A stretch of DNA of 64,000 nt from Argopecten irradians (Eukaryota > Mollusca > Bivalvia > Pectinida > Pectinidae). Within the stretch, counting starts at the first letter, position 1; each line of letters begins with the position of its first letter. The stretch covers positions 33,598,980-33,662,979 of the forward strand of contig NC_091144.1 of NCBI RefSeq assembly GCF_041381155.1, written 5' to 3'. Below are positions 16,947 to 64,000 of this stretch, in pieces. A program made the position numbers and the translations under genes. Under the pieces are notes generated by a model, which worked only from the letters and a program-made list of their open reading frames with translations, ran no database searches and was not told the origin of the DNA.

Positions 16947-18153
16947 TTGACCTTTGCATTAGGACCGCAGCGTGTTTATTGAAGGATGCAGCGTGTTTAT
17001 TCGTCCATGGTCCGTTGTCCGTCCGTCCTTCCGTCCGTCCGTCCGTCCGTCTGTCCGTTAACAATTCTTGTTACCGCTATTTCTCAGAAAGTGCTGAAGG
17101 GATCTTTATCAAATTTCATATGTAGGTTCCCCTAGGACCTTAGTTGTGCATATTGCATTTTGGGACTAATCGCTCAACAAGATGGCCGACCGGCGGCCAT
17201 CTTGGATTTTGATAGTTAAAGATTGTTACCGCTATTTCTCAGAAGTACTGAATGGATCTTTCTCAATTTTCATATGTATGTTCCCCTAGGACCCAAGTTG
17301 TGCATATTACATTTTGGGACCGATCGCTCAACAAGATGGCCGACCGGCGGCCATCTTGGATTTTGATAGTTAAAGATTGTTACCGCTATTTCTCAGAAGT
17401 ATTGAATAGATCTTTCTCAATTTTCATATGTAGGTTCCCCTAGGATCGAAGTTGTGCATAGTACATTTTGAGACCGATCAGTCAACAAGATGGCTGACCG
17501 GCGGCCATCTTGGGTTTCGATAGTTAAAGCTTGTTACCACTATTACTCAGAAAGTACTGAAGGGATCTTTCTCAAATTTCATATGTAGATTCCCCTGGGA
17601 CCCTTGTTGTGCATATGTCATTTTGGGACTGATCAGTCAACAAGATGGCCGACCAGCGGCCATCTTGGATTTTGATAGTTAAAGTTTGTTACCACTATTT
17701 CTCAGAAAGTGCTAAAGGAATGTTTCTCAAATTTCATATGTAGATTCCCCTAGGACCCTAGTTGTGCATAAAACATTTTGGGACTGATTGGACAACAAGA
17801 TGGCCGACTGGCGGCCATCTTGGATTTTGATAGTTAAAGTGCTGAAGGGATGTTTCTCAAATGTCATATGTAGATTCCCCTGAGGACCCTAGTTGTGCAT
17901 ATTGCATTTTGGGACCGATCGGTGAACAAGATGGTCAACCTGTGGCCATCTTGGAATTCATCGCTGATTCTCAGAAAGGAATAAAGTGATCTGTCTTAAA
18001 TGTCATATGTTGTATATTTGAAAAAGTTTGAAAAGCAGGGAAAAGATCCTTCTTTCCATTGTCAGGCATAGATCATTCTATGGTGGGCGCCAAGATCCCT
18101 CTGGGATCTCTTGTTGACCTTTGCATTAGGACCGCAGCATGTTTATTGAAGGA
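16947..18153. mobile_element. Pearl-type element 1 (155 bp cores, CCGT run) with 40 bp flanking repeat
   Basis: The element proper is 16987-18113. A (CCGT)n tract at 17015-17055 is followed by about six roughly 155 bp tandem cores (ACCGCTATTTCTCAGAAAGT ... AACAAGATGGCCGACC...). It ends with the hairpin CAAGATCCCTCTGGGATCTC TTG. The same tail closes the element at 38503-40112. Both sides carry the same 40 bp (TTGACCTTTGCATTAGGACC...), at 16947-16986 and 18114-18153, with one mismatch. Architecture matches bivalve pearl / helentron-associated elements; there is no protein. Confidence 0.7.
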
Positions 18154-20370: not shown

Positions 20371-23099
20371 AGGGCCTGTATCGCTCACCTGGTTTTTTGT
20401 TAGTAATTATCACAAGACTCTGACAATTAGAAAAATAAGCAAAATTGACTCCCAAAGTTTAATTTTGAATCACAACCATACAATGATGCTATTGATACCA
20501 TACAAATATGCTATCCAATACATAGGTTCAGAGACAAAGTAATTTATATGAAAATAGTAGCCTAATTGACCTTTTGACCTCGCATCTATTGCCGTCTAAG
20601 GCCCCGGGGGGTCAGCCCTATCATTTGTACAATTTCAAATCCCAACCCTATAAGGATGCTACCATTGCACTATAAGTGCTCTTCCATTCTTAGTTGCAGA
20701 GAAGAAGTCGTTTATATGGAAATAGCTAAATTGACCCCTTTTGACCCCACCCTTCAGGCCCCCGGGGGGTCAGCCCCATCATTTGCAAAATTTTGAATCC
20801 AAACCCTATAAGGATGTAACCATTGCATTATGAGCGTAATCCCATGTTAAGTTGCAGAGAAAAAGTCATATATATATATGGAAATTGACCACTTTTGACC
20901 CCGCCCCTCAGGCCCCCGGGGGGTCAGCCCTATCATTTGCACAATTTTGAATCCCCACACTATAAGGATACTACCATTGTATTATGGGTGCTATACCGTG
21001 CTTAGTTTCAGAGAAGAAGTCGTTTAAATGGAAATAGCCAAATTGGCCACTTTCGACCCCGCCCCTCAGGCCCCCTGGGGGTCAGCCCCATCATTTGCAC
21101 AATTTTGAATCCCCACCCTATAAAGATGCCACCATTGCATTATGGGTGCTATACCATGCTTAGTTTCAGAGAAGAAGTCGTTTATATGGAAATAGCCAAA
21201 TTGGCCCCTTTTGACCCCGCCCCTCAGGCCCCCGGGGGTCAGCCCCATCATTTGTACAATTTTGAATCCCCAACCTATAAGATACTACCATTGCATTATG
21301 AGTGCTATCTCATGCTTAGTTTCAGAGAAGAAGTCGTTTATATGGAAATAGCCAAATTGACCCCATTTGACCCCGCCCCTCAGGCCCCCGGGGGGTCAGC
21401 CCCATCATTTGTACAATTTTGAATCCCCACCCTATAAGGATGCTACCATTGCATTATGGGTGCTATCTCATGCTTAGTTTCAGAGAAGAAGTCGTTTATA
21501 TGGAAATAGCCAAATTGACCCCATTTGACCCCGCCCCTCAGGCCCCCGGGGGGTCAGCCCCATCATTTGCAAAATTTTGAATCCAAACCCTATAAGGATG
21601 TAACCATTGCATTATGATGCGTTTCAGAGAAGAAGTCGTTTATATGGAAATAGCCAAATTGACCCCTTTGCCCCCCCTCAGCCCCGGGGGTTGCAGAGAA
21701 AAAGTACCATATCCATATTTAGTCGTTATATGGAGAATTGACCACTTTTGACCCCGCCCCTCAGGCCCCCGGGGGGTCAGCCCTATCATTTGCACAATTT
21801 TGAATCCCCACACTATAAGGATACTACCATTGTATTATGGGTGCTATACCGTGCTTAGTTTCAGAGAAGAAGTCGTTTAAATGGAAATAGCCAAATTGGC
21901 CACTTTCGACCCCGCCCCTCAGGCCCCCTGGGGGTCAGCCCCATCATTTGCACAATTTTGAATCCCCACCCTATAAAGATGCCACCATTGCATTATGGGT
22001 GCTATACCATGCTTAGTTTCAGAGAAGAAGTCGTTTATATGGAAATAGCCAAATTGACCCCTTTTGACCCCGCCCCTCAGGCCCCCCGGGGGTCAGCCCC
22101 ATCATTTGTACAATTTTGAATCCCCACCCTATAACGATGCTACCATTGCATTATGGGTGCTATCTCATGCTTAGTTTCAGAGAAGAAGTCGTTTATATGG
22201 AAATAGCCAAATTGACCCCATTTGACCCCGCCCCTCAGGCCCCCGGGGGGTCAGCCCCATCATTTGTACAATTTTGAATCCCCACCCTATAACGATGCTA
22301 CCATTGCATTATGAGTGCTATCTCATGCTTAGTTTCAGAGAAGAAGTCGTTTATATGGAAATAGCCAAATTGACCCCATTTGACCCCGCCCCTCAGGCCC
22401 CCGGGGGGTCAGCCCCATCATTTGTACAATTTTGAATCCCCACCCTATAAGGATGCTACCATTGCATTATGGATGCTATCCCATGCTTGGTTTCAGAGAA
22501 GAAGTCGTTTATATGGAAATAGCCAAATTGACCCCTTTTGGCCCCGCCCCTCAGGCCCCCGGGGGGTCAGCCCCATCATTTGTACAATTTTGAATCCCCA
22601 CCCTATAAGGATGCTACCATTGCATTATGGATGCTATCCCATGCTTGGTTTCAGAGAAGAAGTCGTTTATATGGAAATAGCCAAATTGACCCCTTTTGGC
22701 CCCGCCCCTCAGGCCCCTGGGGGGTCAGCCCCATCATTTGTACAATTTTGAATCCCCACCCTATAAGGATGCTACCATTGCATTATGGGTGCTATCCCAT
22801 GCTTGGTTTCAGAGAAGAAGTCGTTTATATGGAAATAGCCAAATTGACCCCTTTTGGCCCCGCCCCTCAGGCCCCTGGGGGGTCAGCCCCATCATTTGTA
22901 CAATTTTCAGTTAGTAGCCCATAAGGATGCTACCAGTCAAATTTTGTTGAAATCCGACCAGCGGTTATGGAGAAGAAGTCGATTGTTGACGGACGGACGG
23001 ACGGACGACGGACGACGACGGACGACGGACGACGGACGACGGACGCCGGACGCCACGGTATGGCATAAGCTCACCTTGGTCCTTCGGACCAGGTGAGCT
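20371..23099. mobile_element. Pearl-type element 3 (158 bp cores) with 15 bp direct flanks
   Basis: About 16 tandem cores of 158 bp (CAGCCCCATCATTTGTACAA ... GAAGTCGTTTATATGGAAAT) are followed by a (GGAC)n/(GACG)n tract at 22989-23050 and the hairpin TCACCTTGGTCCTTCGGACC AGGTGA. AATAACAAATCAATG is present immediately outside both ends (20356-20370 and 23100-23114). Long open frames through the cores arise because the unit lacks stops in one frame; they are not genes. A block around 20780-21240 is repeated near 21575-22110, so the array has higher-order structure. A single related core fragment lies at 54540-54624. Confidence 0.75.
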
Positions 23100-24972: not shown

Positions 24973-27900
24973 TCATTTGTTTGCATTCTGAGAGAAGTTC
25001 ACGGAGTATCCACCGCTGTTTGGATCCTGGTTAAGCTGGAAGTTATCTGTTGACAAGCCAAAGAGTTTAAGTATCATGTTTCCAAGGTCCTTTAATTTAC
25101 CTGTAAGTAAACAAATAAGTTTTAAGATTTTTTTCCCATCAGTGTCCATATAAGATATATCTAAAAATACAATATTTAATAATAGATGCTAATTCTGTTT
25201 AGGTTATGAGGGTATAATGATAATGGAGCACGTGTAAATTATGTAACCCCGGCGAAGTCATTCATATGTTCCCACCAAAAGTGGGGTCATGATCCCACGT
25301 TGCTACGCCATCGACTATTCACGTAACAATAGAATCTCCGCGCGTGTTGTGCTAACATTATACACTGATAATGATAATACTAGAAAGCATGGTTATTGAG
25401 TCCATGTCAGTGCAAACTGTTAATATATACATGTACTTTATGTACTTAAAGGGACAATTCATTGAGGGCTCAGGCTAATTCTATAACATAACCACAAAGC
25501 AAAATATGGCATAGATGTATTATTCTACATTCCCTATGAAACATATATATAACAAAAAATATTGAAAAATTCCACAAAATTGTTATTGGTATTTTGATTG
25601 ATATCGTTTAAATTTCATCTTGTATAACATTACGATAAAGCATGGACAATATGTATGCTGTACCCATACCCGAGCCAATGTCATGTGATTACAGTCAAAC
25701 CTGTCTATAAAAATCACCCAAGGGACAAGGGCAAAGTAGTCTGTATAGCCAAGTGTTCTTTATACACAGGTCAAATTGTGTTACAAATGGCCATTTTGGA
25801 CCCTAAAAAGTGGTCTTATTAAGCAGGTGGTCTTTATATAGAGGTGGTCTGTAAGACAGGTTTCAGTGTAAACAAATACTCCAAAACAGCAACTTTTCGA
25901 GTGAGATTCAATTTTGCCTATTTAGATAATTGGAATTATTTTTTCGACTAATATATCCCAAAGGACACATCTGGGCACTTCTAATGTTAAGTCTAAAACA
26001 GTTTAGGACATGAATTTTGTGAAATGGTTCACTGTGAACACTTATGTTACCAGGGAATTTTACGGTAAGTGAGAGTGGAGTTTCTACGATTTATGAGGTA
26101 AGATTATAACTGGTAATCGGAGGGGTCTTTATTTTTTTACATATCTTGTGACAAAGTAAGGGAAATAACTCCGTCATGATTAAATGGAATTTGGTGCCAA
26201 AGTTGCTGACGATGCAGGTTACTGCATGTGTGGTACAGTTCTATGGAATAAATCGAGCATTTCATGAAAAACTCAGAGTCTCCGTCTTTCCCCTGTAGGT
26301 ACCAAACTCTGGAGTAACACTTACCTAACATTTCTGCTTTCATTTTTTCATTTCTTTCCTTGATTTGGTCAGGTAACCTCTGAAATTAAAAAAAAAGAAC
26401 TGTATTATCACCTGGTATGAAAGGATATCAAATATTCAGTTGGCTTTTATTTCATTAGGTTATACATCATGAACGGAGTGCTTACTTAAGTTATCAAGTT
26501 GTGAGCTAAGACAGGTAGATCAGGACTACTATAGTACTGTGTCCTAACATCCTATTAGTGTTTACTTGACCTTGACCTATCGGCTATTTTGAAAGATGTT
26601 GTTTTTAATAATTTTTAAAACACATGAACTTTCTGCTGTGTGTCTTTTAACGGGGGTGTAACAGTATACATTGCACTATATTTACACTTGTTAGGCTTGG
26701 TCACTATACGCTAATACTAGCCGATTTTGTTTACCATAACTGCATGGTAACATTGAACTTTGAACTTGCGTATGAAAATGTTCTATGCAACGTAAAAGGA
26801 CTACTTTTTTTTTAAAGAAACACATGGCTTTGTTTACATTTTGACGCAACATTACGTGTATATTGTTGTTTTTCATAGAATTTTGGGAAAATGTAAACAA
26901 TATATACATGTTTTATATTTATATATGATTCAAACAATTTTTAGATTAACAATTGTATAAAGAAACGGAAAAATATCCCGACCGGGGCAACTTGCTTTCA
27001 TTTTTGTTAAAATGATGGGTGTCAAATGTAAACATTACCTCTGTGCCTATGTTCGTCCTACGATCGAGTCTTTGGAATGGACGGGCGTGAGACCCTCTGA
27101 TAGAGGTCAATTAAAAACATATCCTCTTGTCTTTGTTCTTTGAGAATTTAATCATGTGTATTATAAAACATGCACCGCTAGTAATCCACGTGTTGACAGT
27201 TATGCGTCACCACAAATACATTGTATCCGTCGAACACAAGTGAATTTGTTTCATCTATCGATGGCGATGGATCTAAGCGTAGATTATATAATCACATGGC
27301 TCCCAAGGATGATATCGTCAAGTCAGACGACATCTCAAACACATTGAGCTGCTTGAAAATCGGTGTTTTGACAACTTCGGCAAACTCAAGTGTGTAAGCG
27401 TGCGTCAGCTTCGCCTCGCTGCACAATAACGGTCACCGAGTTCACACATGTGGCCGTGTACAAATTCTTTATGTTATTACGCTATATATTAACTTTTAGC
27501 AAAATTGAATATATATTTAAAGTTCTGATCTGATGAAATAAAATTTTCTCTGAAATTTACTGTGTTTGTCATGTTTATTTTACAATAAATTATTGAACTT
27601 TTTTGTCGTCGCGGATGAATAATTCTACCTTACGTGAAGAGTCATCATTCGCTGTTCAATTGAGTAAGCTCCTCCCACTTTTGACCGACTTTTATTGAAT
27701 AATTACGTCACATTCAAATGACGATTTTATTGCATAAAATATAAATAAAAATGTCGTTTGAGTGTAAATATAGGGATTGGATTTCGCTTTTATGTTAACC
27801 ATGCTTGTATGGAGCAATTCCTCTAAGAATATATTCAATATGGATAACGCGCCCCATAGAATATATTCTTAGAGGAATTGCTCCATACAAGCATGGTTAA

Positions 27901-30900
27901 CATAAAAGTGCAATCCAATCCCTATATGTTGCTGGTGTATGCCTCTAAATTTGATCAATTGATAGCAAATGCAACAAGTTGATAACAATCGCTGATAGTA
28001 CACCAATCTATTGATAGTTTCAATAATCAGATTTTTTCTGTAGCAGATGCATATATAAAATAGTAAGAGGTAAAGTGTTATGTAGATAGCAGATATGATC
28101 ATGAGTGAATTAGATTGTGCGTCAGTGATTTTTTTTCCTTTCCCATACCATACAGGCAGCTCTCGCTGAATGTTGACCAGGATCAATTTCTAGAACTTTC
28201 TGGTAGTCTACCAAAGCCTCGTCTAGTTTATCCTCTCCTTCGTAGAGCTCGGCTCTCCGTAGTAGTGCCTTCAGGTAATGTGGGTGGAGGTTTAGGGCAC
28301 GAGTACAGTCCTTGATGGCCTCGTCTTTGTGGTTCTTCAAAAAATATCAGTTTGTCTATGTTTAAGTTATATGTGCTGTACTTGTCATACTCATGAATCA
28401 AGATAAGCTTTTATGTTATTTACCACCAAAAGTTACCAACATTTTGAGAATTACTGTACTTTCAACATGGATATGGTTTTCAGTTTCAAACAACGGGGAG
28501 ATAATCTACTATTTTTAAATCGAAGGGTTTTGGTCTTGCTTGTAGACAGAAGTGAGCACCGAGGGGCAGGAAACCAGGCATTTGAACTATATGGAAGATG
28601 ATGCAGCATTAGATCAGCTGTAAGTGTTATATTGTATGGGTGTATATACCGGTATATTAATGAAATGAATAGAGTGTATTTTAATGATGACTCTATCTGG
28701 TAGCTTTAATTTAGAATAGTGTTATTGAAGTTATAGGAAATATTTAAGGAATAGATTTTTATTTTGTTGAGGTTATGAGGGCATAATGATAATGGAGCAT
28801 GTGTAAATTATGTAACCCCGGCTAAATAAAAATATATTCCTTATATTCCCAGTTTTTCACGTAAATGAATACTATTTATTCTCGCGACAGTTGCATAATT
28901 TTTATTAAAATACCCATATTTTTTACTCTCCCGTCATCGTCAACGAATTTGATTGAACAGCTGATTGGAATCGAGTCATTCATTGTTCGCACCAAAAGTG
29001 GCTGTCATGACACCACATTGCTACGCCAGCGACTGTTCCCGTAACAATGGAATCCCCACACGTGTTGTACTATCAGTAAATACACTGATAATAATAATAT
29101 TAGAAAGCATGGTTATTGAGTCCATGTCAGCGCAAACTGTAAATATATTACCAGATATCACTTATGATTGCAGCGTACAATAGGATCATTGATGATATTA
29201 TTCCTCGGATTGGTTACCATATGCCAGTAAAGTTTATCAATAGTTATATATGATGCTCCACTCTGATTGTAGTGATGTTGGTTGTTTTTGTTTCTAGCAC
29301 ATACATGTACCAGTATATGTAATTCATATATTTTTACACTCCATGGGGTACAGAAAATGAATCTTGGGTAGGCTGCTGGGAACAAATAAACAAGAGGCCC
29401 ATTAGGGTGACCTAATGATCATCTGACAATTTAACCTTGGCAACGTTATTGTAACACCTTGAATATTCATTGTTTGACATGGAACAATTAAAGCATGTAC
29501 AACTTCTTACCAGTTTCATCTTACAGACGGCTCTATTGGAGAACATTATAGATCTATCTTTAGGAAAGCTGAGTGGACATATATGTAAGGCTCGAGTGTA
29601 ACAGCGCATAGCATCCTTGAAGCTTTGATCCTTAAACAGTTTGTTCCCTTCATCTTTACAGCATTGTGCTTCTTTCCGTTTCTCCTATAACAGATGACAA
29701 AATGATTAAATATCAACATTTAAAACTGTAAGTGCAGTCTTCAAATATTCCATATTATTATTAATATACTGTAATGAAGTACAGAAGAAGTGTTACTTCA
29801 ATCTTTCGTATGGTAGTCATCAGTTTTGAACATATTCTACATTATATGTTCAAAAATGCTATCATTAAAAACAAGCCAAGCGCATTATTGTGGAATCATC
29901 TAAAATGTATGTCTAAATGTCAGAATCATAACAATATTCATTAACAACTGAAGTGTGATAATGGTGTGATTATTTTGGATCAACAAGGGTTTCTAAACAA
30001 AATAAATGCACAATTTGTAAACGTTTCAAATCTAGTTGAATACAAAGAAGTAGATTATGATCATATGCAAATGGAAGAACATGCATCAAGGCTGATATCC
30101 TCTCAGAATCCTTTCTGCATTCCTTACATAAAATTAGAGGAATTAAGTTGAATCAAACATTAAAAAGCTGGATGAAACAAAACCAACTGGTATTGATGGA
30201 ATAAGCCCAAGGGTTATAAAATTGTGTAACGTTATTATTTCTCCCTATTTGACTTACATTATAAATTTAAGTTTATCAAAGTCTCGTTTTTCATCGTCTC
30301 TTAAGGAGGCAAGAGTGACAACATTACATAAGGGTGGCGAAAAAGATTATCTTGATAATTACAGACCTATATCTATATTAGCCTATTTCATTGATAGATG
30401 GATTGATTGCATTGATAAAAACGAAATGGTAGGAGCAATATGAATAGATTTTAGGAAGGCTTTTGACTTAGTAGATCATAATATACTTCTTCACAAGTTA
30501 AAATGTTTAAATATTTCAATGTGAGGTATTAGTTGGTTTGCTTCATACTTATGTGTCAGAGTTCAAAAAGTTCAGTATAGAAATAGCTCCTCATCATCTG
30601 AATTCATAAAATCGGGAGTTCCACAAGGATCAATACTGGGTCTTTTAATGTTTATATCTTATGTAAATGATATGCCGGCCGCTATATGTGAAAAATTGTC
30701 AAATATATATATATAGATATGTATGCAGATGACAGTACTAGTACTATGCATGTAAAGGGTATTGACTATACTATTGTTACATGTCAACTCCAAGAAAATA
30801 TGAATCAAATTGTAAAATGGTGTACAAATAATAACATGAAACTAAATCAACAGAAAAACAAATCTGTGTTAATTTCCAGTAAACAAAAGTCGGGTGAACA

Positions 30901-33041
30901 TATGCCCATGGTATTGTATGCATATAATGAGGAAATACATTCTACATCATGTCAAAAGCTTTTCGATGTACACATCAATAAAAACCTCACTTGGGTAGAA
31001 CAAGTAAAACAAGTTTTATCAAAACTAGCCACGGCAGTTGCTTTACTACGTAGAATGTCTAGATATTTGAATGTCAATGCCAAAAAAGTTTATAACAATG
31101 CATATATTACCCCAATAATGGACTATGCTGCTGTTGTATGGGGGAATGGCCTGACCCAGGAACAAATCAACTTTGACTCCAAGCAAAGAGCTGTTTAAAG
31201 ATACTGATGCTCTTCCTTTCGAATATAGAATTATGTATCATACATGTGTACTACTGTAGTTTATAGGTCATTAAATGATCTGCCACCTGAATATATAAAA
31301 ACTTGTTTTATTTCTTGCAATGAAATGTATCAATATGGGTTAAGATCAACAACACAAAATAAATTAATCCTACCTAGAGCACACTCTGAATTGTTCAAAA
31401 AACCCCGCAATTACAATCAATGGAGTTAAGCTCTGGAATAACTTACCAGCGAGTTTAAAAACTATGCCATCACTATTTGCCTTCAAAAAGAATGTTAAAA
31501 CTTATTTTTTTAACAATGTATTTATCAAACTGAAATTTCTTCGCATTCTTATGTTACATGTAATTTTTATCTATATACATGTATATTATTAACACCACAT
31601 AGGCTGCTGTCTCCCTATATATATATAGCTGCAGGTAGATACAATATCGTGTTTTTGTTTTTTTAAATGATTGATAGATCATTTTCATATTTCAATGCAA
31701 TGGAAATACTGGGTATGTTTGGTATTAATCAACATAAGTTTATTTGTTTAAAAACAAAATCTGTGTTTGAATATGAAATTGACTGAAAAATCACAATATA
31801 TTTTTTTTATTCCTGTCAATATGAATGTATTACATGTTTGTTCTTGTTTTGGTTGTATTGTTGTGAGGGCCATATGTAAGATTAGTACTGTACTAAATAT
31901 GTAACCCTCGTGAAATAAAGTTTTTATTATTATTATTATTATGTGAATTTATATCATACCTAAAAACAGGATTAGATTTATAGATATTCTTGTTCTGCAT
32001 GTCCATTTATAGTATGTACTATGTTATACATGTATACACGTTTCTCAAAAATTATATATATATGAGTACCCATGTACAAAAATATGCATGCCTACACTAA
32101 TAATTTATGAATAAGTGAGGGTATAAAGCAACTACAACCCTAGAAATACAAGCTGATCATAATCACTTCCTTAAAGACATACACTATGCTGAAAGCTTTT
32201 ATGACGAAAATATGAAAAACACAATAAGAGCATATCTCCTAATGTAATAGGATTTACAATAAATTTAATACCTGCCTCTGCCAGGGATCGAACTATGGAT
32301 TACTAGTCTGACGCTCAATCGATCAAGCTAAAGAGAAGTTCTCTCTAGCTGAGTGATATATTGTGGCTAGTATTAACCAGGGTTACATAATAATTATACC
32401 TCCTTTTCTTCATCGGTCATTTTTTCTTCTAACTGCTTCAATTCCTCTTCATTTGCTTCTCCTTCTTCTGCTGATTCGTAGTCTTCCTCTTCTTCACTTT
32501 CAGAATCTTCATTTTCAAGAAGTTCATCCACATTGTTTATTTCCTTGGATGTTTTTTCATTGTCTTTTGAATATTCTTCACAAAAATCAAATTCATTATC
32601 CGTGCATTTTGGCACATTGGAGTCATTCTTAGTTTCAGAATCTGATGTTTGACTAGTTATACCATTTGAATCTTTCGCATTGATATTTGAAAAATTAGCA
32701 GCAATATCATCCATGTCGTTGTTATCTGTGACTTGAATACCACGTTTTTCGATATCGTCATTATCTTCTACCTGAACACATTTCCTATCTGTCCGAGAGT
32801 GTCTCAAGTCAACATACCTTCCCTCTGCTTCCTTCACGTCCGTGTTCTGTGATAAAGCGTGATTCTGTGATATGTTACAATCTGTTTCTTGAACACCAGA
32901 TGTCACCACAGTGTCAAAAGAGTCATGGAACTGTTCCACTGTTTTTACGGTGTCAGAAAACGATTCGTCATCATCACTGCTATTTGACTCCATTTCCACT
33001 TGCCGAACCACCGTACCGACTTCTTCGACGGGATTTGACAT
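24973..33041 (-). CDS. TTC1: TTC1, tetratricopeptide repeat protein 1, five exons
   Basis: Exons on the minus strand are 33041-32400, 29684-29511, 28334-28149, 26379-26325 and 25100-24973 (stop 24975-24973). All have AG/GT borders and consistent phases, giving 394 residues. Residues 1-214 are acidic and Ser/Asp/Glu-rich and end [10 protein letters not shown], like human TTC1 but longer. TPR1 is about 216-254 ([20 protein letters not shown]), TPR2 257-291 ([15 protein letters not shown] then [18 protein letters not shown]) and TPR3 292-325 ([20 protein letters not shown]). The C-terminus has [20 protein letters not shown] and YSVNF, a family signature. TTC1 is a cytosolic adaptor reported to bind chaperones and Ras-pathway proteins; the role here is by homology. 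An earlier in-frame TTG at 33068 is not the start. A possible 5' UTR acceptor (CCAACTTACAG) lies just upstream of the ATG. Confidence 0.92.
25202..25432. repeat. Dispersed repeat, short copy, in TTC1 intron 4
   Basis: AGGTTATGAGGGTATAATGA, GTGTAAATTATGTAACCCCG and GCATGGTTATTGAGTCCATG match 28773-29145 in order. Relative to that copy about 130 bp are missing after AACCCCGGC. The family is unrecognised. Confidence 0.6.
25688..25874. mobile_element. MITE family E, copy 2
   Basis: CAGTCAAACCTGTCTATAAA at the left and GTCTGTAAGACAGGTTTCAG at the right form inverted ends; the middle has GGTCTTTATATAGAGGTGGT. Lies in TTC1 intron 4. Confidence 0.6.
27769..27926. mobile_element. Near-perfect foldback element
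   Basis: Two 68-base arms (left begins TATAGGGATTGGATTTCGCT; right ends AGTGCAATCCAATCCCTATA) pair with only about two mismatches around a 22-base loop. The element is in TTC1 intron 3. The high arm identity suggests recent origin or gene conversion between the arms. Confidence 0.75.
28548..28622 (+). mobile_element. Extreme 3' end of the 2340-3690 retrotransposon family
   Basis: AGTGAGCACCGAGGGGCAGG, CCAGGCATTTGAACTA and GCATTAGATCAGCTGTAAGT match 3600-3684 with few changes and a short gap. Nothing upstream matches, as expected of a severely 5'-truncated insertion. It lies in TTC1 intron 2. Confidence 0.6.
28773..29145. repeat. Dispersed repeat, long copy, in TTC1 intron 2
   Basis: This is the longer relative of 25202-25432, containing an extra segment with TTCCTTATATTCCCAGTTTT and ATTCTCGCGACAGTTGC. 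Short reading frames across it are incidental. Confidence 0.55.
29960..31945 (+). mobile_element. LINE with reverse transcriptase remnants, inserted in TTC1 intron 1, antisense
   Basis: Reading frames in order show [13 protein letters not shown] (30196), [19 protein letters not shown] (30330), [18 protein letters not shown] (30449), [10 protein letters not shown] (30610), MYADDSTS (30719, the YADD catalytic box), [17 protein letters not shown] (30957) and [11 protein letters not shown] (31120). The C-terminal continuation near 31420 has GVKLWNNLP. The frame changes several times, there is an in-frame stop before the DFRKAFD motif, and the segment between the NYRPISIL and DFRKAFD motifs is shortened, so the copy is dead. 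It ends with AATAAAG and an (ATT)n tail at 31914-31942. The order and motifs fit a Jockey/CR1-group element; no endonuclease is present, so it is 5'-truncated. Confidence 0.8.
32273..32393 (-). mobile_element. tRNA-derived SINE fragment
   Basis: The minus strand shows CTTGATCGATTGAGCGTCAG and a B-box-like CATAGTTCGATCCCTGGCAG. It sits in TTC1 intron 1 directly beside the exon 1 donor (exon ends at 32400). Confidence 0.5.
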
Positions 33042-33476
33042 TTCAATACACTGTAAGTTGGTAATCAATATTCACACGAACTTATTTTCAACAGCATGAC
33101 ACAAAAATCAGCTCATAAGAACAAATAAATAGTCGGGATTTTCATTCGACAACTTTCTGTTTTATGTGTCTGTGTCAAATAGCTGCTTGAAAATAAAAGC
33201 AATATATCTCCTTTTCTATCATGCCTCTCCACGACCATGATCAAAACGAGAAACGTGTTCTTGGTCCGTTTCCCGGTTTTGCTTGTTACGGAATTTTTAT
33301 GGAAAAAATAATTTTTTAGTCATATCAATATTTTGAATTATTTGTCTAATATATTTTTCGTAAATATATTCCTATATATTTAATCAAATATTTTAGACAG
33401 CAACGTTATGCCTCTGTATTTTTTCACAATATATTATTTTGAGTTGGTTTCTTTTATTATATTCTCCGGATCCAGT
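33042..33476. promoter_or_regulatory. Shared head-to-head promoter region of TTC1 and GATD3
   Basis: Only 435 bp separate the TTC1 ATG (minus) from the GATD3 ATG (plus), so both 5' UTRs and promoters must fit here unless there are unseen 5' exons. The segment 33215-33290 is less AT-rich than its surroundings. No TATA box stands out. A bidirectional promoter is inferred. Confidence 0.5.
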
Positions 33477-36400
33477 ATGGCTAGGACTTTGAGCAGCATC
33501 AGGAAGGCATTTATCTCAAAGCACACAAGCATTGTCAGCAGTGTTCTTAAGTGTCATTTTCATTCTTCTGGAGTAATGAGTTCCAAGGTTGCCGTGGTAA
33601 TGTCTACAGCTTACTTAGTATTGTTTAGATCGTGTTGTCCTCGCGTGTCCTTGCAGATATTTTGTACTAACTCAGTAACTGTACCAGAAGCATGTAATTG
33701 TTTATGACTGTACATGTACACAGTACTTCATCGTCAGTTACCCACGTATTCAGCATACACTAGTTAGGTTGCGATGGTTTCCTAGGGTGACATATTGAAA
33801 ATGTTGTGGTCCCATTTACTACACTGTGCATAGATAGAGATTTTTTATGAATATCTTGAGATGTGACAATAATTTTGAAAAGAAAGAAACATCAATAGTA
33901 TTTTTCAAAGAGCATCTGAAAATGTCTAGTGCATGTACTCAAGTATATATGTATAAACTTCCTAAAATAATTTTTAGATATAAAATACATACTGTGCATG
34001 TACAAATTGTATATATAAATGGGAAAGAGTTCCTTTTTGATCCCTCTCCATAAATTATTTATTCTCGCTTTAGTCAAGTGTTTGAAAAAGTTTCTTCTGA
34101 AGGGGTACCAAGAAAATTTGGGGCATGATCTTTTTGGGGTTAAAAAGAATTTTAGAAAATTATTAAATCTAGAAGAAATATATAAAACTATTTTTTTAGC
34201 TACTTTCCTACTTGTGGCATCCATAGAACACTCTTATATATTGCTCACTATATAATGATGATAATACAAGTTATAACAAACGGAAATACTCCTTTTAGTT
34301 TTTGTTACTTTTCTCTTGGTAAGATTTGAACTCACATACTTGACACTTACGATTGTTCTAATTTTTATACAAAACTATGGCTTCAAAATTAATCCTGATT
34401 AATTGATACCATAATAGTTATGGATGTTTTTTGTGTTTGTACATTTGAGAATGAATGAAGTGGACAATTAATTTATCTTCTCACCAAAAATTTGTTTTCT
34501 CATAAAAATCTAGCGGCGGTTCAAAGGGAACTCTTTCTCAATTTATGTTATGATTTAACTTGTGTATTATCAGCTATATAGTACACACAATTGTATGCAT
34601 GCCCACATCTCTCTGTGAAATGTAGCTTCTGTCGTACCGGAAATGATATCACTGTGTGATCTTTTCCACTACAACAAATACTACCAAATCTAGCAATACT
34701 TTTTTTGGTAGATTATCTCCCCTGTTGAGTTTTCTCCCCTATATGATTTTTCAGGAACATTTATCTTTAAAAAAATTGTTGTATTCTCTAACTTTATAAT
34801 GTCTTTTGTATTTAGCATTTTAGCTAATATCTTGACATATTCCACTTTTGCAATTAAAAGTTTAATAACTTAGTATAGTCTGTACATATTATTGTATATT
34901 GTATATTTTATATTTGTCTTGACCATATGTAAGATGAACTGCTTATCCGAACATGTAATCAAGTTTAAATAAGTATAATTATGATTAAATTCTATTGTAG
35001 ATTTTGTCTGGTTGTGGAGTGTATGATGGAACGGAAGTCCATGAAGCATCAGCGTATGTACAGTTCTTGTCATTTCAGAAATTTAATATGTACTTATATA
35101 TCTATAAAGAAAAAAAAATGAAAAATAAAATAAATACAAAAAATAAATATAATATGTACTGCTTAAACACGTCAATCATAAACTTATATATTTAAGCAGG
35201 TAACAAATAGTTTAGTGTATGTTCTTAAAATATCAGGTAATGTATGATGGATTTTTCAGTATTATTGATTATTTTAGAGTAATATAATTCTTTTCTCCTT
35301 CTTCTAATGTTAACAATTAGGAACTTTGATGAGTGAATTTTGAGACATTGGAATAATTTTGTGTAGGCAAATAAATAATGTCTTTAAGAAAATAAATCAG
35401 GACATATTGCTATGTATATGAAACTGAAGATGAAATATATGATTTTTATAATATATGTATGGGATTATATTTAGGACTTTAGTCCATTTGAGTCGTGGGG
35501 GAGCTGAAGTGTCCATGTTTGCTCCAAATGTAGAACAGATGCATGTGGTGAACCATACGAAGGGGGAGCCAATGGAACCAAATAGGTAAATACACACATC
35601 AAAATACCAAGGGGGAGCCGATGGAACCAAATAGGTAAATACACACATCAAAATACCAAGGGGGAGCCAATGGAACCAAATAGGTAAATACACACATCAA
35701 AATACCAAGGGGGAGTCCATGGAACCAAATAGGTAAATACACACATCAAAATACCAAGAGGGAGTCCATGGAACCAAATAGGTAAATACAAACATCAAAA
35801 TACCAAAGGGGAACCCAATTATTGGAACAAAATAGGTAAATACATACATCAAAATACCTAGGGAGGAGCTCATGGAACCAAATAGGTAAATACAGACATC
35901 AAAATACCAAGGGGGAACCGATGGAAGCAAATAGGTAAAAACACACATTAAAATACCAAGGGGGAGCCGATGGAACCAAATAGGTAAATACACACATCAA
36001 AATTCCAAGGGGGAGCCGATGGAACCAAATAGGTAAATACACACATCAAAATACCAAGGGGGAGCCAATGGAACCAAATAGGTAAATACACATATCGAAA
36101 TTAAAAACACAGATCAATGAAAAATACAAATTCAAATACTGGATAACAAACATTGCAAAATACACATCAAAATACAATACACATGAATGTGTGATTTTCA
36201 ATTATTTTTGTTCTTTCTCAAAGAATGATAGAACATTTTAAATCATTATTTGGATATTTGGGGAGTTAGTTATTGGTTTGGTTACCATTATTCATTTCCT
36301 GTGTTTTGTTTCTCCTGCTATTTATGGAGATAGAATGCTGGTATTAGAGATATCAGAGAAAAAGAAGGTACTTCCCTGAGTAGAATTTGTTTTCACATTT

Positions 36401-39400
36401 TTATCAAGCTAATATTCACTTTTTTATCAAGCTAATATTGATTTGACTTTAGCACCTTAATTAAAAAAATGTGCTGTTTTCTCCCCACAGAAATGTGCTT
36501 GTTGAATCTGCCAGGATAGCAAGAGGAAAGATTGATGCTCTTTCAAATTTAGACTCTTCCAAATTTGATGCCATCATCTTCCCGGGTGGATTTGGAGCTG
36601 CTAAAAACTTGTAAGTTTAAGTTAAGCCAGAATTTTAAGATAGGAATTATTACTGTATTTTTTAAAATTGTAAGTTGCACCTGAGTATAGGCCTCAAAGG
36701 TCTTTTATTTTTACCAATTTTTTTCAGTTTTAGTACACGGCTATAAGCTGTATTATAGTGAAAGCCGCAGCCAGTACTAATTCAAGTGTAATCTGTCAGT
36801 AATATGAAGATACCGAACAACTCGACGAATTATTAATTTCCTGTAATGCATACCTGGTATATGTAGATATTTAACTTCCTGACCCTTAACATTTAAGTCT
36901 CTGAATAAAAAATATCTGATTACTGATGGATTTATTCACCTTGAATAATTGAATGTTGGTCAATGTGTAAGAACAATAAATTGAACCTGGAAATATAGCA
37001 GAATAAATACACTTATTCATGAAATATAAAGCCCCGTGCCACTAACTGCTTTGCTAAAACTCTGTAACTGGAAGGTTTCTGACCGTTGTAAACAAATTCT
37101 GAAATGTGGTAATTGACACATAGATATTTCTGCCTGATCAATGTTGACAGTGGATGTTGTAGGTGTACATTTGCTTTAGATGGAGGTTTCTGACCGTTGT
37201 AAACAAATTCTTAAATGTGGTAATTTTCATATAGAGATATCAGCCTTATCATTGATGGATTTTGTAGGTGTACATTTGCTTTAGATGGAGGTTTCTGACC
37301 GTTGTAAACAAATTCTTAAATGTGGTAATTTTCATATAGAGATATCAGCCTTATCATTGATGGATTTTGTAGGTGTACATTTGCTGTGGATGGAGCTGAG
37401 AATATGAAAGTTGATACGGATGTGAAAAGAGTAATTGGTGACTTCCATAAAGAAAACAAACCTATCGGGTAAGATTCTCAATATGATGGAGTAACATATC
37501 AAACCATAATTAGTGAAAGGCTTGTTTTAAGTTCAAGGGCTACTAGATTTTTGTCCTAAATCTTTTTACTTTCATCCATTTGTTCATTCTTTAATTGTGA
37601 GTAATATGTAAATTGCTGTTGGTTGTAAATAAACGCGTCCAGATGTTAAAGATGCTCCATCGCCGACAGAGCATAAATGATATTCATTATTTGAACAAAA
37701 ATTGGTGTTTAATCGTGTAAATATGTGTTTAATTAACGCAAAAAAAACCCTATAAGATAATTCGTTTTGCCTTTGGTGCAAGCGCAATCAGTACTTCATT
37801 CCATATAGGATATAGTGCCAAGGAATTTTTTCGGGATGCAATTAATTATTTTTCATATTTTTAACTTGAAGTAAAATTAGAAGCTCAAACTTTCCATTGG
37901 TGGTAATGGTGTAAAGTAAGTAACTTTTGTGACTGAATAAAACTACTAAATCATCTGCTCCTGTTTTTGATAGTGAAAAAATACCATTTGTCAGTGGTGG
38001 AGCATCTTTAAGACTGTATTACCAGGTTTGTACTGGCATTCAGTACTTAAGTACAACTATATGTGTTACATGTAGTTTTTGTGGAATTTTGTAGCCTACG
38101 TTACACTGTATAGTTTATATAATGATGCTTTAACAAATCTAGCATAAAATATCTAACATTGCATTTTTTAATGTCATTATTCATAAAGGTTTTTGTACAA
38201 TTCACTGAATGTTTCAATATTTCTTTTCTCTTTAAATATACATTTGTACATATAACATAATTGTTTATCTCCCTTTGAACATAAATTTGGATTTGATGTT
38301 TTTGATAAAAGATTACCAAAATAGGACAAAAATGATCAAATTTTCAAATTTGCTTAATTAATTACACATATTTCAGAAGGGCAGAATGCAATGTAAGATG
38401 CAAAACTATCATTCTAATTATATCAGTAATGTACTGTACATTTATCACTAAATAACGGATTTGTGGGGGCCAAAAAGTGCCAAAACGTTAATCACATTTT
38501 TAGCCCACCATCATCAGATGGTGGGCTATTCAAATCGCCTTTCGTCCGTGGTCCGTCGTCCGTCCGTCCGTCCGTTCCGTCCGTCCGTCCGTCCGTCCGT
38601 CCGTCCGTCCGTCCGTCCGTTAACAATTCTTGTTACCGCTATTTCTCTAAAAGTACTGAAGGGATCTTTCTCAAATTTCATATGTAGGTTCCCCTAGGAC
38701 CCTAGTTGTGCATATTGTATTTTGGGACTGATCGGTCAACAAGATGGCCGCCAGGCAGCCATCTTGGATTTTGATAGTTAAAGTTTGTTACCGCTATTTC
38801 TCAGAAAGTACTGAAGGGATCTTTCTCAAATTTCATATGTAGGTTCCCCTAGGACCCTAGTTGTGCATATTGAATTTTGGGACTGATCGGTCAACAAGAT
38901 GGCCGACCAGCCGCCATCTTGGATTTTGATAGTTAAAGTTTGTTACGGCTAATTCTCAGAAAGTACTGAAGGGATCTTTCTCAAATTTCATATGTAGGTT
39001 CCCCTAGGACCCTAGTTGTGCATATTGTATTTTGGGACTGATCGGTCAACAAGATGGCCGCCAGGCAGCCATCTTGGATTTTGATAGTTAAAGTTTGTTA
39101 CCGCTATTTCTCATAAAGTATTGAAGTGATCTTTCTCAAATTTCATATGTAGGTTCCCGTAGGACCCTAGTTGTGCATATTGCATTTTGGGACTGATCGG
39201 TCAACAAGATGGCCGACCAGCCGCCATCTTGGATTTTGATAGTTAAAGTTTGTTACCGCTAATTCTCAGAAAGTACTGAAGGGATCTTTCTCAAATTTCA
39301 TATGTAGGTTCCCCTAGGACCCCAGTTGTGCATATTGCATTTTGGGACTGATCGGTCAACAAGATGGCCGACCGGTGGCCATCTTGGATTTTGATAGTTA

Positions 39401-42400
39401 AAGTTTGTTACCGCTATTTCTCAGAAAGTATTGAAGGGATTGTTCTCAAATTTCATATGTAGGTTCCCCTAGGACCCTAGTAGTGCATATTGCATTTTGG
39501 GACTGATCAGTCAACAAGATGGCCGCCAGGTAGCCATCTTGGATTTTGATAGTTAAAGTTTGTTACCGCTATTTCTCAGAAAGCACTGAAGGGATCTTTC
39601 TCAAATTTCATATGTAGGTTTCCCTAGGACCCCAGTTGTGCATATTGCATTTTGGGACTGATCAGTCAACAAGATGGCCGCCAGGTAGCCATCTTGGATT
39701 TTGATAGTTAAAGTTTGTTACCGCTATTTCTCAGAAAGCACTGAAGGGATCTTTCTCAAATTTCATATGTAGGTTCCCCTAGGACCCCAGTTGTGCATAT
39801 TGCATTTTGGGACTGATCGGTCAACAAAATGGCCGACCGGTAGCCATCTTGGATTTTGATAGTTAAAGTTTGTTACCGCTATTTCTCAGAAAGTATTGAA
39901 GGGATTGTTCTCAAATATCATATGTAGGTTCCTCTAGGACCCTAGTTCTGCCTATTGCATTTTGCGACCACCATCTTGGATTTTGATAGTTTAAAGTTTG
40001 AAAAGCAGAAAAAAGAAGTGTAAGTTTGAAAAGCAGAGAAAAGATCCCTCTTTCATTTGTCAGACATAGATTAATCTTTGGTGGGCGCCAAGATCCCTCT
40101 GGGATCTCTTGTTTTTAAGTAAAATTAATAACATTAACAGAACTAGACAGTCATTTAGGTAAATTATATTTGAATCAATAAATAAACATGTTGTTGGGGT
40201 TGTGGAAGTGATTGAGTGGATATTTGACTTTTCAAAGATAGGTTTTGTATTAAGAGTAATAGAGAAAACAAATGTGGTGCCGAGACTTTAACTTGAATAA
40301 ATACAGTAACTAGACTTAGATATCTTTTCAATCTGTTGACTTGTCACGGTGTAATGATCTGTGTTACAGTCTGTGCTGTATTGTTGATCTGTTGACTCTT
40401 CTCAGTGTAATGATCTGTATTACAGTCTGCTGTATTGTTAATCTGTTGACTCGTCTCAGTGTAATGATCTGTGTTACAGTCTGTGCTGTATTGTTGATCT
40501 GTTCACTTGTCTCAGTGTAATGATCTGTTTTACAGTCTGTGCTGTGTTGTTGATCTGTTGACTCGTCTCAGTGTAATGATCTGTATTACAGTCTGTGTTG
40601 TATTGTTGATCTGTCGACTCGTCTCAGTGTAATGATCTGTATTACAGTCTGTGCTGTATTGTTGATCTGTCGACTCGTCTCAGTGTAATGATCTGTATTA
40701 CAGTCTGTGCTGTGTTGTTGATCTGTTGACTCGTCTCAGTGTAATGATCTGCTGTATTGTTGATCTGTTGACTCGTCTCAGTGTAATGATCTGTATTACA
40801 GTCTGCTGTATTGTTGATCTGTTGACTCGTCTCAGTGTAATGATCTGTATTACAGTCTGTGCTGTATTGTTGATCTGTCGACTCGTCTCAGTGTAATGAT
40901 CTGTATTACAGTCTGTGCTGTATTGTTGATCTGTTGACTCGTCTCAGTGTAATGATCTGTATTACAGTCTGTGCTGTATTGTTGATCTGTTGACTCGTCT
41001 CAGTGTAATGATCTGTATTACAGTCTGTGCTGTATTGTTGATCTGTTGACTTGTCTCAGTGTAATGATCTGTATTACAGTCTGTGCTGTATTGTTGATCT
41101 GTCGACTCGTCTCAGTGTAATGATCTGTATTACAGTCTGTGCTGTATTGTTGATCTGTTGACTCGTCTCAGTGTAATGATCTGTATTACAGTCTGCTGTA
41201 TTGTTGATCTGTCGACTCGTCTCAGTGTAATGATCTGTATTACAGTCTGTGCTGTATTGTTGATCTGTTGACTCGTCTCAGTGTAATGATCTGTATTACA
41301 GTCTGTGCTGTATTGTTGATCTGTTGACTTGTCTCAGTGTAATGATCTGTATTACAGTCTGTGCTGTATTGTTGATCTGTTGACTCGTCTCAGTGTAATG
41401 ATCTGTATTACAGTCTGTGCTGTATTGTTAATCTGTTGACTTGTCTCAGTGTAATGATCTGTATTACAGTCTGTGCTGTATTGTTGATCTGTCGACTCGT
41501 CTCAGTGTAATGATCTGTATTACAGTCTGTGCTGTATTGTTGATCTGTTGACTTGTCTCAGTGTAATGATCTGTATTACAGTCTGTGCTGTATTGTTGAT
41601 CTGTTGACTTGTCTCAGTGTAATGATCTGTATTACAGTCTGTGCTGTATTGTTGATCTGTTGACTTGTCTCAGTGTAATGATCTGTATTACAGTCTGTGC
41701 TGTATTGTTGATCTGTTGACTCGTCTCAGTGTAATGATCTGTATTACAGTCTGTGCTGTATTGTTGATCTGTTGACTCTTCTCAGTGTAATGATCTGTAT
41801 TACAGTCTGTGCTGTATTGTTGATCTGTCGACTCGTCTCAGTGTAATGATCTGTATTACAGTCTGTGCTGTATTGTTGATCTGTTGACTCGTCTCAGTGT
41901 AATGATCTGTATTACAGTCTGTGCTGTATTGTTGATCTGTTGACTCGTCTCGGTGTAATGATCTGTATTACAGTCTGTGCTGTATTGTTAATCTGTTGAC
42001 TCGTCTCAGTGTAATGATCTGTATTACAGTCTGCTGTATTGTTGATCTGTTGACTTGTCTCAGTGTAATGATCTGTATTACAGTCTGTGCTGTATTGTTA
42101 ATCTGTTGACTTGTCTCGGTGTAATGATCTGTATTACAGTCTGTGCTGTATTGCCCCTGTTCTGGCCGCCAAGCTAGTGCCTGGTTGTGAGGTGACTGTT
42201 GGATCGGACGAGGAAGAAGGCGGTCGATGGCCGTATGCGGGCACGGCTGGTGCCATAGATTCCATGGGATCCAAGCACATCAAAAGAAATGTCACTGTAT
42301 CCTTTACCTGGTACTGTAACTTCCAGCTTTATTAGCTGTTGCATGCTTTAATGAATCAAAACATTATCAGATGACTATACCTGGTACTTTGTTTTCAAGT

Positions 42401-43276
42401 CACCTTTTGCCTATTGCCCATTTGCATCCTTTTCTGCACTGGCTATGATAAATGACTGCCCTACTTATGTATATCAAGTAAGAAATTTTCCTTAAAATCT
42501 GTAATGCTTTCCTATGGAGTATTTTAAGTTAAGGAATCTCTTTAAGTTAAAGGAATGTTTGAAACTGAACCCCTGTTAAAAATAGAATTGACTCTTAAAA
42601 TTTATATAAGCATATACATGATATTAAGGTTAACAATAGTGTCTAGATGGACAGCAGAGTGAGGATTGGAGTTTTATGATTGCTGAAGATATTATGTATA
42701 ATACTCCTGGTTATTAATTGTGCATACTGCATTTTTTTTATCAAAAACATTATCTTAACTAGTGGTAGTTGCTATCTTGAACTTGACCATTAATTGAAGA
42801 GATTAAGATAGATTATAATTAATTAATAAAATCCTCTTTGGTAACTTTTAATCACAATATCTCTTTGCATGAATCTGTTGGCTCTGTTTCTCATACTCCA
42901 TTTCCGTATAATTGTGAAAAAGAAAATAGCAGTATAGGAAGCGTGCTTGAATTTGGAGTTATTGATAGTTCTTATAATGTACTGAATGGATTGAAGGACA
43001 ATTCACTGGCACAGGTTCTGTATACTTAATAACTTTGGTGAAAAAGCAATGTTGAACAGGTAAGATCAATGATGATTTTTTTTCAGTTACCACTTTTACT
43101 CTGTATAATGACCACTAAGTTCATTTTGACCTTGACACACTGACCAGGACATACATGTAGATGAGAAGAATAAGATCGTCACAACACCAGCTTTTATGTG
43201 TGAAACAGCTCTTCATGAAATTTTCGATGGAATTGGCAAAATGGTGGAAAATGTTTTGTCTCTGGCGAAGAAGTAG
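33477..43276 (+). CDS. GATD3: GATD3 / ES1 homologue, mitochondrial DJ-1/PfpI-family protein, seven exons
   Basis: Exons are 33477-33596, 35001-35053, 35475-35585, 36491-36610, 37373-37468, 42140-42296 and 43148-43276. Phases all agree, and the product is 261 residues (human about 268). Residues 1-32 are rich in Arg, Lys and Ser with no acidic residues, as in a mitochondrial presequence. Then follow [17 protein letters not shown] (41-57), [29 protein letters not shown], the nucleophile-elbow region [11 protein letters not shown] (168-178), [13 protein letters not shown] and [14 protein letters not shown] near the end. The human protein is a mitochondrial class-I glutamine-amidotransferase-like protein reported to act as a deglycase; C169 or C170 would be the reactive cysteine by family position. 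Exon borders 3 (donor), 5 and 6 (acceptors) are each flanked by tandem copies of themselves. AATAAA lies 90 bases after the stop. Confidence 0.94.
33597..35000. other. GATD3 intron 1
   Basis: AT-rich, no recognisable element. Small open frames at 33847-34255 on both strands have no protein-like features. Confidence 0.5.
35560..36095 (+). repeat. 49 bp minisatellite made of the GATD3 exon 3 end and its splice donor, 11 copies
   Basis: Each unit is 26 bases of exon (AAGGGGGAGCCAATGGAACC AAATAG) plus 23 bases of intron (GTAAATACACACATCAAAAT ACC). The AATAG|GTAAAT donor appears at 35585/35586 and then near 35635, 35684, 35733, 35783, 35835, 35885, 35934, 35984, 36033 and 36083. Only the first copy follows real upstream exon. 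GTAAAT carries an in-frame TAA after the AGG codon, so splicing from any later copy would add a stop. Units differ by a few substitutions. Confidence 0.85.
37071..37395 (+). repeat. 105 bp repeat duplicating the GATD3 exon 5 acceptor, two decoys plus the real site
   Basis: TTTGTAG|GTGTACATTTGCT (TGTTGTAG at the first copy) occurs at 37163, 37268 and 37373. The last leads into true exon 5 ([10 protein letters not shown]). The two upstream copies read CTFALDGGF and then stop. The repeated intron part starts GGTTTCTGACCGTTGTAAAC. Copies at 37268 and 37373 share an almost identical preceding 80 bp; the first is more diverged. Confidence 0.85.
37646..38011. mobile_element. MITE family B (TTAA type), complete copy in GATD3 intron 5
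   Basis: TTAA AGATGCTCC at the left and GGAGCATCT TTAA at the right are exact inverted ends with a TTAA at each border, as expected of piggyBac-type target duplications. Length 366 bp, no coding capacity. Confidence 0.75.
38503..40112. mobile_element. Pearl-type element 1, second copy, in GATD3 intron 5
   Basis: It starts with a hairpin (AGCCCACCATCATCAGATGG TGGGCT), then a (CCGT)n tract (38556-38620), then nine 155 bp cores from 38630, and ends with the CAAGATCCCTCTGGGATCTC TTG hairpin as in 16947-18153. Each core holds an inverted pair around CAAGATGGCCG and CGGCCATCTTG, and two cores contain GCCGCCATCTTGG. No protein is encoded. Confidence 0.75.
40331..42153 (+). repeat. 56 bp minisatellite made of the GATD3 exon 6 acceptor, about 32 copies
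   Basis: Each unit is 14 bases identical to the start of exon 6 (TCTGTGCTGTATTG) plus 42 bases of intron ending GTAATGATCTGTATTACAG. A few units are 54 bases (one TG lost). The last acceptor (42139/42140) continues into real exon 6. Every unit keeps the TAATGA-like branch region and the TTACAG acceptor. Splicing to the last decoy shifts frame by 2 and reaches a stop soon after. It is not a CRISPR array: there are no unique spacers. Confidence 0.88.
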
Positions 43277-43362
43277 ACAGTGATGTTGGGAAAAACTAAC
43301 TGAACTTGTGATACGACAAGAACTCACTGATGTTGTATTGGATTGTGCTTGGTACAGAAGAC

Positions 43363-43368
43363 AATAAA
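43363..43368 (+). promoter_or_regulatory. GATD3 polyadenylation signal
   Basis: AATAAA about 90 bases after the GATD3 stop codon; the expected cleavage region follows within 30 bases. Confidence 0.6.
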
Positions 43369-43452
43369 ATCATGCTTACTTTACCAAATACTAATGATAT
43401 TTATATGGAGAGTATACATATATATAAGATCATGAATAAGGCTTCCATGTAG

Positions 43453-43640
43453 ATATTCCGTCTTTGCATATTACAGAGTTAGCTCCCTTGCGGGAAGGTA
43501 TCGATTGTTACGTCATTATTTTGTGAGCCAATTCTCATCGTTTTCTCAGAAAAGTACATGTATGATGTTACGCACACAAACGCATGATGTCACAATCAAT
43601 CCCTACCAACAAGGGCAGATAACTCTGCAATATGCAAATA
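43453..43640. mobile_element. MITE family A, copy 4
   Basis: TATTCCGTCTTTGCATATTA at the left and GCAGATAACTCTGCAATATG at the right, with TGTCACAATCAAT inside. Sits just after the GATD3 polyadenylation signal. Confidence 0.7.
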
Positions 43641-43682
43641 CAAAAATAACATCATGGTGATAAGTGTGTGGTTCTTCTCACA

Positions 43683-43763
43683 GGGACCTGGCACAAAATT
43701 CTAACCAACAGCAATATGTATTAAAGTAGAATCAACTGTTGGTTAGAAAATTGTGCCAGGTTC
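43683..43763. repeat. Short foldback between the convergent genes
   Basis: GGGACCTGGCACAAAATTCT AACCAACAG is mirrored by CTGTTGGTTAGAAAATTGTG CCAGGTTCC around a 23-base loop. Probably a tiny MITE. Confidence 0.6.
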
Positions 43764-43995
43764 CTGTTGTCCTTCTGTCTCCTGTTCCAAACAATGAAAT
43801 ATTAAAAACCATGAACTGTGTGTGGATCACTATCACTATGGCTTTAGCTCCAGTTATGCGTGGTACCACATGGCAACATATGATAACACCTGATGGACAG
43901 TTTGACAGCAGGACTGCTCCCAGTATATTGGTTGTACTGTTAACATATTTCGCTCACCATTTGATATTGTCAGTTTATTAAAGAGTTTTATACCC

Positions 43996-63838: not shown

Positions 63839-64000
63839 AGTGTTGTCATGTGGGTTTTTTTAAGAATACTAATAAAAGAATGCTTAGTATGGTGTTGCAA
63901 AGATAAAACAACCACACAATAAATACGGTATCGTATATCCAAAGGTTAAAACCTTATAGCCGGGTATCCTGAGAATTGCTTCAAATCCGGGTACTAACAA
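63839..64000. other. Right edge, nothing recognised
   Basis: Unique-looking sequence after the satellite; no feature supported. Confidence 0.4.

Follow-up and report, generated by a model that had tools for sequence, protein, structure and literature searches.

The locus analysed here raises the question of how three exon-intron borders of a single gene came to lie each inside a tandem repeat. It is located in a stretch of 64,000 nucleotides of Argopecten irradians (contig NC_091144.1), which is referred to below as the window. The answer that we consider likely is that three independent duplications, each straddling a border, were tolerated and were later enlarged by unequal exchange. The gene concerned, which we take to be GATD3 (the profile and structure matches themselves read ElbB/ES1), is the following:

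33477..43276, plus strand: GATD3/ElbB-family gene of seven exons, located by spliced translation and by NCBIfam and PDB matches.
33477-33596, 35001-35053, 35475-35585, 36491-36610, 37373-37468, 42140-42296 and 43148-43276, plus strand: exons 1 to 7 of this gene.

The seven exons, joined through GT-AG introns, gave 786 nt that encode 261 amino acids without any internal stop. Residues 36-259 of this product matched the NCBIfam ElbB profile NF008747 with 281 bits against a cut-off of 180, a full-length match above the curated cut-off, whereas the Pfam DJ-1/PfpI profile PF01965 scored 30.4 bits against a cut-off of 26.6, and four solved ElbB/ES1 sequences of the PDB (1vhq, 5lir, 1oy1 and 3l3b) matched it too. 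By these matches, the predicted product is an ElbB-family member of the DJ-1/PfpI superfamily. The introns around exons 3, 5, and 6 are at present 421-4671 nt long. The weakest splice site of the gene is the exon 6 donor at 42297 (ACT/GTATCC), with -1.7 on a matrix of consensus frequencies, the scores of which serve only for copy-to-copy comparison; its position was supported by gap-free homology, and the exon that carries it sits behind the 33-copy acceptor array described below. Head to head with GATD3, on the minus strand, a TTC1-like gene spans positions 24979-33064, with five coding segments located by using a fragment of human TTC1 as query, and no TRF array overlapped the TTC1-like segments tested.

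Tandem arrays were called by TRF, and the 33 copies of the 56-bp unit were counted by copy alignment. The long arrays of the gene are:

35555..36101, plus strand: array of 11 copies of a 49-bp unit (TRF 11.0), by TRF and copy alignment.
37073..37395, plus strand: array of 3 copies of a 105-bp unit (TRF 3.0), by TRF and copy comparison.
40331..42153, plus strand: array of 33 copies of a 56-bp unit, by TRF and copy alignment.
38543..39968, plus strand: CGTC microsatellite followed by a 155-bp array, inside intron 5 and touching no border, by TRF consensus.

In each of the first three, the unit itself crosses a splice site and combines exonic with intronic sequence. Copy 1 of the 49-bp array (35555-35603) consists of the last 31 nt of exon 3 and the first 18 nt of intron 3, the exon-side copy of the 105-bp array (37289-37393) of the last 84 nt of intron 4 and the first 21 nt of exon 5, and the exon-side copy of the 56-bp array (42101-42153) of the last 39 nt of intron 5 and the first 14 nt of exon 6. 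The description given in the first-pass annotation, with arrays across the exon 3 donor, the exon 5 acceptor and the exon 6 acceptor, was thus borne out by TRF and by splicing. The fourth long array, which proper extends over 38630-39968, is probably borne by an element, as a near-identical unit of 154 bp is repeated at 17068-17839. Both arrays, at 17017-17955 and 38543-39968, show nearly the same 154/155-bp unit behind a GTCC/CGTC microsatellite, which suggests a dispersed element carrying internal tandem repeats.

The coincidence of arrays and borders was compared with a null in which the arrays were collapsed to one copy and each unit length was slid over the gene, counting the placements across exactly one border versus those wholly intronic and leaving out the wholly exonic and multi-border ones. 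For the eight TRF arrays with a score of at least 50, 0.77 straddlers were expected, with P(at least 3) = 0.029; other choices gave 0.028 (seven arrays), 0.013 (the four long ones) and 0.039 (nine arrays at a lower score), and without the 155-bp array the values were 0.012 (six arrays) and 0.003 (the three long local arrays). None of these values (0.003-0.039) is a fair one, because the gene was picked for showing the pattern. The process favouring splice junctions that had been put forward earlier for this gene is therefore not supported by placement probabilities of about 0.003-0.04 before post hoc correction. In its genome-wide form, a mutational or selective process would make splice junctions preferred birthplaces of minisatellites in this genome; the cause might be, for instance, the higher G+C content and sequence complexity of exon edges relative to the AT-rich introns, or duplications seeded by splice-linked R-loops or breaks. 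We regard this as unlikely. All three long local arrays straddle a border (P about 0.003), a finding that counts against our preferred reading and leaves room for a bias, and the exon-side units have 34-41% GC versus 29.5% in the introns outside the arrays and 44.5% in the exons; however, P rises to 0.012-0.039 when the short arrays or that of 155 bp are included, with the choice of the gene uncorrected. The window contains 31 TRF arrays (from 41 rows merged by hand, with one pair still overlapping), and only these three run across an end of one of the coding segments that we located, while one lies inside the open frame of a PWWP gene, but this tally is weak and says little, because the neighbouring genes (TTC1-like, CLAMP-like and PWWP) were only partly modelled. 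If a genome-wide excess were true, it would imply an unrecognised bias in the birth or the tolerance of minisatellites, and further VNTRs with effects on splicing would be predicted.

The preferred reading of tolerated border duplications supposes that the exon side of each unit is the older one. Bacterial and archaeal genomes were scanned for relatives of the product, which gave 66 loci, each represented by its best tblastn segment. The borders of exons 3, 5, and 6 split codons 95, 135, and 167, and no gap at these codons, nor any insertion before or after them, was found in the best segments of any of the 66 loci; the alignment with E. coli ElbB (1vhq) was also free of gaps at the three junctions. 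Since there is no junction insertion in these relatives, the exon edge is the older side; its coding sequence is ancestral and the intronic copies are derived. The residues encoded by the exonic portion of the 49-bp unit include a loop of variable length, with 1, 1, 18, 2, and 35 residues inserted after residues 85, 88, 89, 91, and 92, respectively (summed over sequences); this loop leaves the junction unaffected. Border-crossing units and ancestral exon parts together support the earlier proposal of duplications seeded at the border, with the surplus copies falling in the intron.

The independent origin of the arrays had also been claimed. The units were compared pairwise and on both strands (six comparisons) with 200 mononucleotide shuffles each, and 74, 10, 198, 0, 200, and 195 of the 200 shuffles reached the score. 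The apparent kinship between the 49-bp and the 56-bp units on the reverse strand (0/200) was dropped, as 196 of 1000 dinucleotide shuffles reached its score, and the 10/200 for the 49-bp and 105-bp units on the reverse strand, obtained with mononucleotide shuffles only, is ordinary among six comparisons. These comparisons support the claim: at the level of sequence, the 49-, 105- and 56-bp units are not detectably related, and three separate seed duplications are therefore the simplest account. Further copies of the units were absent from the window at E <= 0.1, except for a 14-nt match at 36162-36175, and IMG/VR, scanned with one 20-mer each of the 56-bp and 49-bp units, gave no match.

Traces of later exchange were seen within two of the arrays. 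Copies 2 and 3 of the 105-bp array differ at just two positions, both in the end derived from the exon, and there copy 2 equals copy 1, whereas copy 1, which actually measures 111 bp, shows scattered differences from copies 2 and 3 and a 6-bp indel further left. Most simply, the middle copy would be a mosaic, with the left and middle parts of copy 3 and the right end of copy 1, as could result from a single unequal crossover when the array had two copies. The alternative is that one codon of exon 5 itself recently underwent two substitutions; the valine of the exon at residue 140 is common to 44 of the 66 homologues, which favours reading the exon as the unchanged partner. In the 49-bp array, the copies most diverged from copy 1 are copies 6, 7, and 8 (11, 7, and 6 differences), while copies 2 and 9 are identical, and this pattern points to block exchange. 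No convincing higher-order periodicity was detected in the 56-bp array over 19 lags (lag 11, p = 0.037 uncorrected). Single units did not fold better as RNA than their shuffles (z of -0.03, 0.56, and 0.33), a hairpin of 22 nt at the acceptor of exon 6 had z of -1.04, and the 507 nt that span the end of the 56-bp array reached -3.44, a value set aside because the repetition itself may produce it. The search of Rfam over 33000-43800 gave no match at the gathering score.

The derived copies carry splice sites of their own, which are clearest in the donor array:

35583..36087, plus strand: 11 GT donors, with the presumed productive GT at 35586 and 10 decoys from 35635 to 36082.

AATAG/GTAAA is kept in all 11 copies of the 49-bp array, and the donor nonamers TAGGTAAAT are identical in 10 of them, the exception being that at 35935, which differs at +6. 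In the 105-bp array, decoy acceptors stand just before 37163 and 37268, so that the acceptor is kept in both intronic copies, although that of copy 1 is weaker (1.1 vs. 5.0 on the consensus matrix). TTACAG is present in 32 of the 33 copies of the 56-bp array, the presumed productive site included; in one intronic copy a 14-bp deletion has removed the acceptor, and four copies show a 2-bp deletion directly behind the AG. Altogether, 43 of the 44 intronic copies preserve an intact site (10/10, 2/2, and 31/32). Splicing modelled at the 43 intact decoys, one at a time, always gave a truncated protein and never a full-length one, with stops after residue 95 (10/10), after residue 144 (2/2) and after residues 171-230 (31/31). 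Splicing at the exon-side sites 35586, 37373, and 42140 yields the protein with ElbB homology, and this homology supports the exon-side site as the probable productive one. The pattern noted in the first-pass annotation, a productive site in the outermost exon-side copy with decoys in the intron, is no additional evidence, because any other outcome would lengthen or break the protein; it is nearly bound to arise when a duplication straddles a border and the gene remains functional.

Intact decoys in nearly every copy, all of them truncating when modelled, would also be expected if the arrays were functional, that is, if decoys competed for U1/U2AF and diverted transcripts to decay, so that copy number tuned GATD3 output. 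In humans, by the title of Lievers et al. 2001, a 31-bp VNTR of the CBS gene is linked to reduced enzyme activity. We nevertheless find such a function quite unlikely here. Among the unit windows, 8 of 49 in the 49-bp array, and 22 of 56 (minority cells) or 39 of 56 (alternative states) in the 56-bp array, were at least as invariant as the splice-site window; special conservation of the decoy sites was thus not found in these two arrays, there is no sign of selection maintaining them, and young or homogenised arrays would retain the sites regardless.

Under the preferred reading, three separate small tandem duplications of 49, 105, and 56 bp would by chance have crossed an exon-intron border. 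The original exon edge with its splice site would have stayed as the exon-side copy and the extra copy would have gone into the intron, leaving the mRNA unchanged whenever the exon-side site is used, because the surplus is intronic. The duplications would be tolerated, presumably as neutral changes, because that site keeps working, and the arrays would afterwards have grown by ordinary slippage and unequal exchange. The exon-side site would most likely be kept in use through exon definition, by which, among equal competing donors, the nearest across the exon should be favoured, whereas decoy use would produce truncated messages, probably cleared by nonsense-mediated decay. A study of human data reports that, between near-equal donors in long introns, the nearest across the exon is favoured, and that in five minigenes, each with a pair of identical strong donors and flanking introns of 365 nt, the exon-proximal donor was the sole one used (PMC9225289). 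The donor array fits these human long-intron data by analogy. Other results of the same work count against our reading or fit it less well: when both donors were weakened, the larger minigene exons were skipped, and 3' sites showed an overall upstream preference, significantly reduced in long introns (L/L), although the authors conclude that through exon definition the closest site across the exon is preferred (PMC9225289). Because of this upstream preference, it is poorly explained how the exon-side acceptor could be used undisturbed next to 31 decoys of nearly equal strength, and this acceptor array may need additional help from the exon side.

It could also be imagined that minisatellites are here preferentially born at borders, because exon definition leaves such duplications as the only harmless ones that touch exons, and that leaky decoy ladders turn copy number into a heritable dial of GATD3 expression; this appears to us very doubtful. 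That collapse or misassembly made the copy numbers or the arrays themselves is extremely improbable, since, although a single assembled sequence was used and tandem arrays are often mis-sized in assemblies, individual copies differ by substitutions and indels of their own (the 33 copies of the 56-bp unit fall into 16 distinct types, and those of the 49-bp unit measure 49, 50, or 54 bp), so that real repeats very probably exist, perhaps in a different number.

Duplications across borders have close published precedents. In the human CBS gene, a 31-bp VNTR, c.1444_1467+7(16_21), coexists with an intron/exon junction duplicated over 68 bp (PMC2630376). Like the 49-bp unit, that of the CBS VNTR extends across a donor, with 24 exonic and 7 intronic nt by its coordinate name, and is present in many copies, but these are 16-21 copies of 31 bp and polymorphic, and here there are 11 of 49 bp. 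The duplication c.844_845ins68 affects the intron 7/exon 8 junction and constitutes, as here, a second border-straddling repeat in one gene, although with two copies instead of 3 and 33; its splicing favours the distal, exon-side site and removes the upstream copy, the text speaking of donors although the duplicated junction is that of intron 7 and exon 8 (PMC2630376). In the potato RdRp gene, a duplication also crosses an intron-exon border and the splice signals were inherited from the parental border, but an additional intron was created, whereas the surplus in GATD3 sits in existing introns (PMC4974935). Human duplicated genes likewise have internal tandem repeats that lie at exon-intron boundaries and influence splicing, although these are variable repeats of recent paralogues, tied to novel introns and to alternative retention within the exon (PMC2812944). 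The AGGT array of UBC has one splice motif per unit, and AG/GT is carried here by the 49- and 105-bp units and not by the 56-bp unit; unlike here, its units are in-frame coding monomers of 228 nt whose sites act as both donor and acceptor, while 49 and 56 are not multiples of 3 and 43 of 43 modelled decoys truncate (PMC10809524). Across the human genome, 792 introns lie inside 262 tandem repeats (PMC10809524). No comparable border-straddling arrays appeared in the available parts of the papers on earthworm metallothionein (PMC12783039) and on Drosophila novel introns (PMC2891723).

In the open-licence literature, as far as its available parts go, no description of three such arrays in one gene was found. 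The claim that no such case had been described holds therefore for the number three, and fails otherwise, as CBS has two in one gene (PMC2630376). The locus is a striking example and not a new phenomenon, since events of this type occur in human genes. Its 11 near-identical donors and its acceptor arrays of 33 and 3 copies offer in one gene a natural test of how the spliceosome chooses among copies, and its donor array extends the published two-site minigene experiment to eleven sites.

Other repeats of the window were observed outside this gene. The open frame of the PWWP-domain gene entirely contains, at 9305-9418, two copies of a repeat whose period is 57, on a 20-codon scale and with some indels. 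Positions 20602-22935 hold two adjacent arrays of a 158-bp unit, with 7.1 and 7.6 copies, rich in CCCCGGGGGG. Finally, a 39-bp unit is repeated about 54 times at 61728-63839 with 97% matches and shows long open frames on both strands, which are probably a by-product of a unit length that is a multiple of 3.
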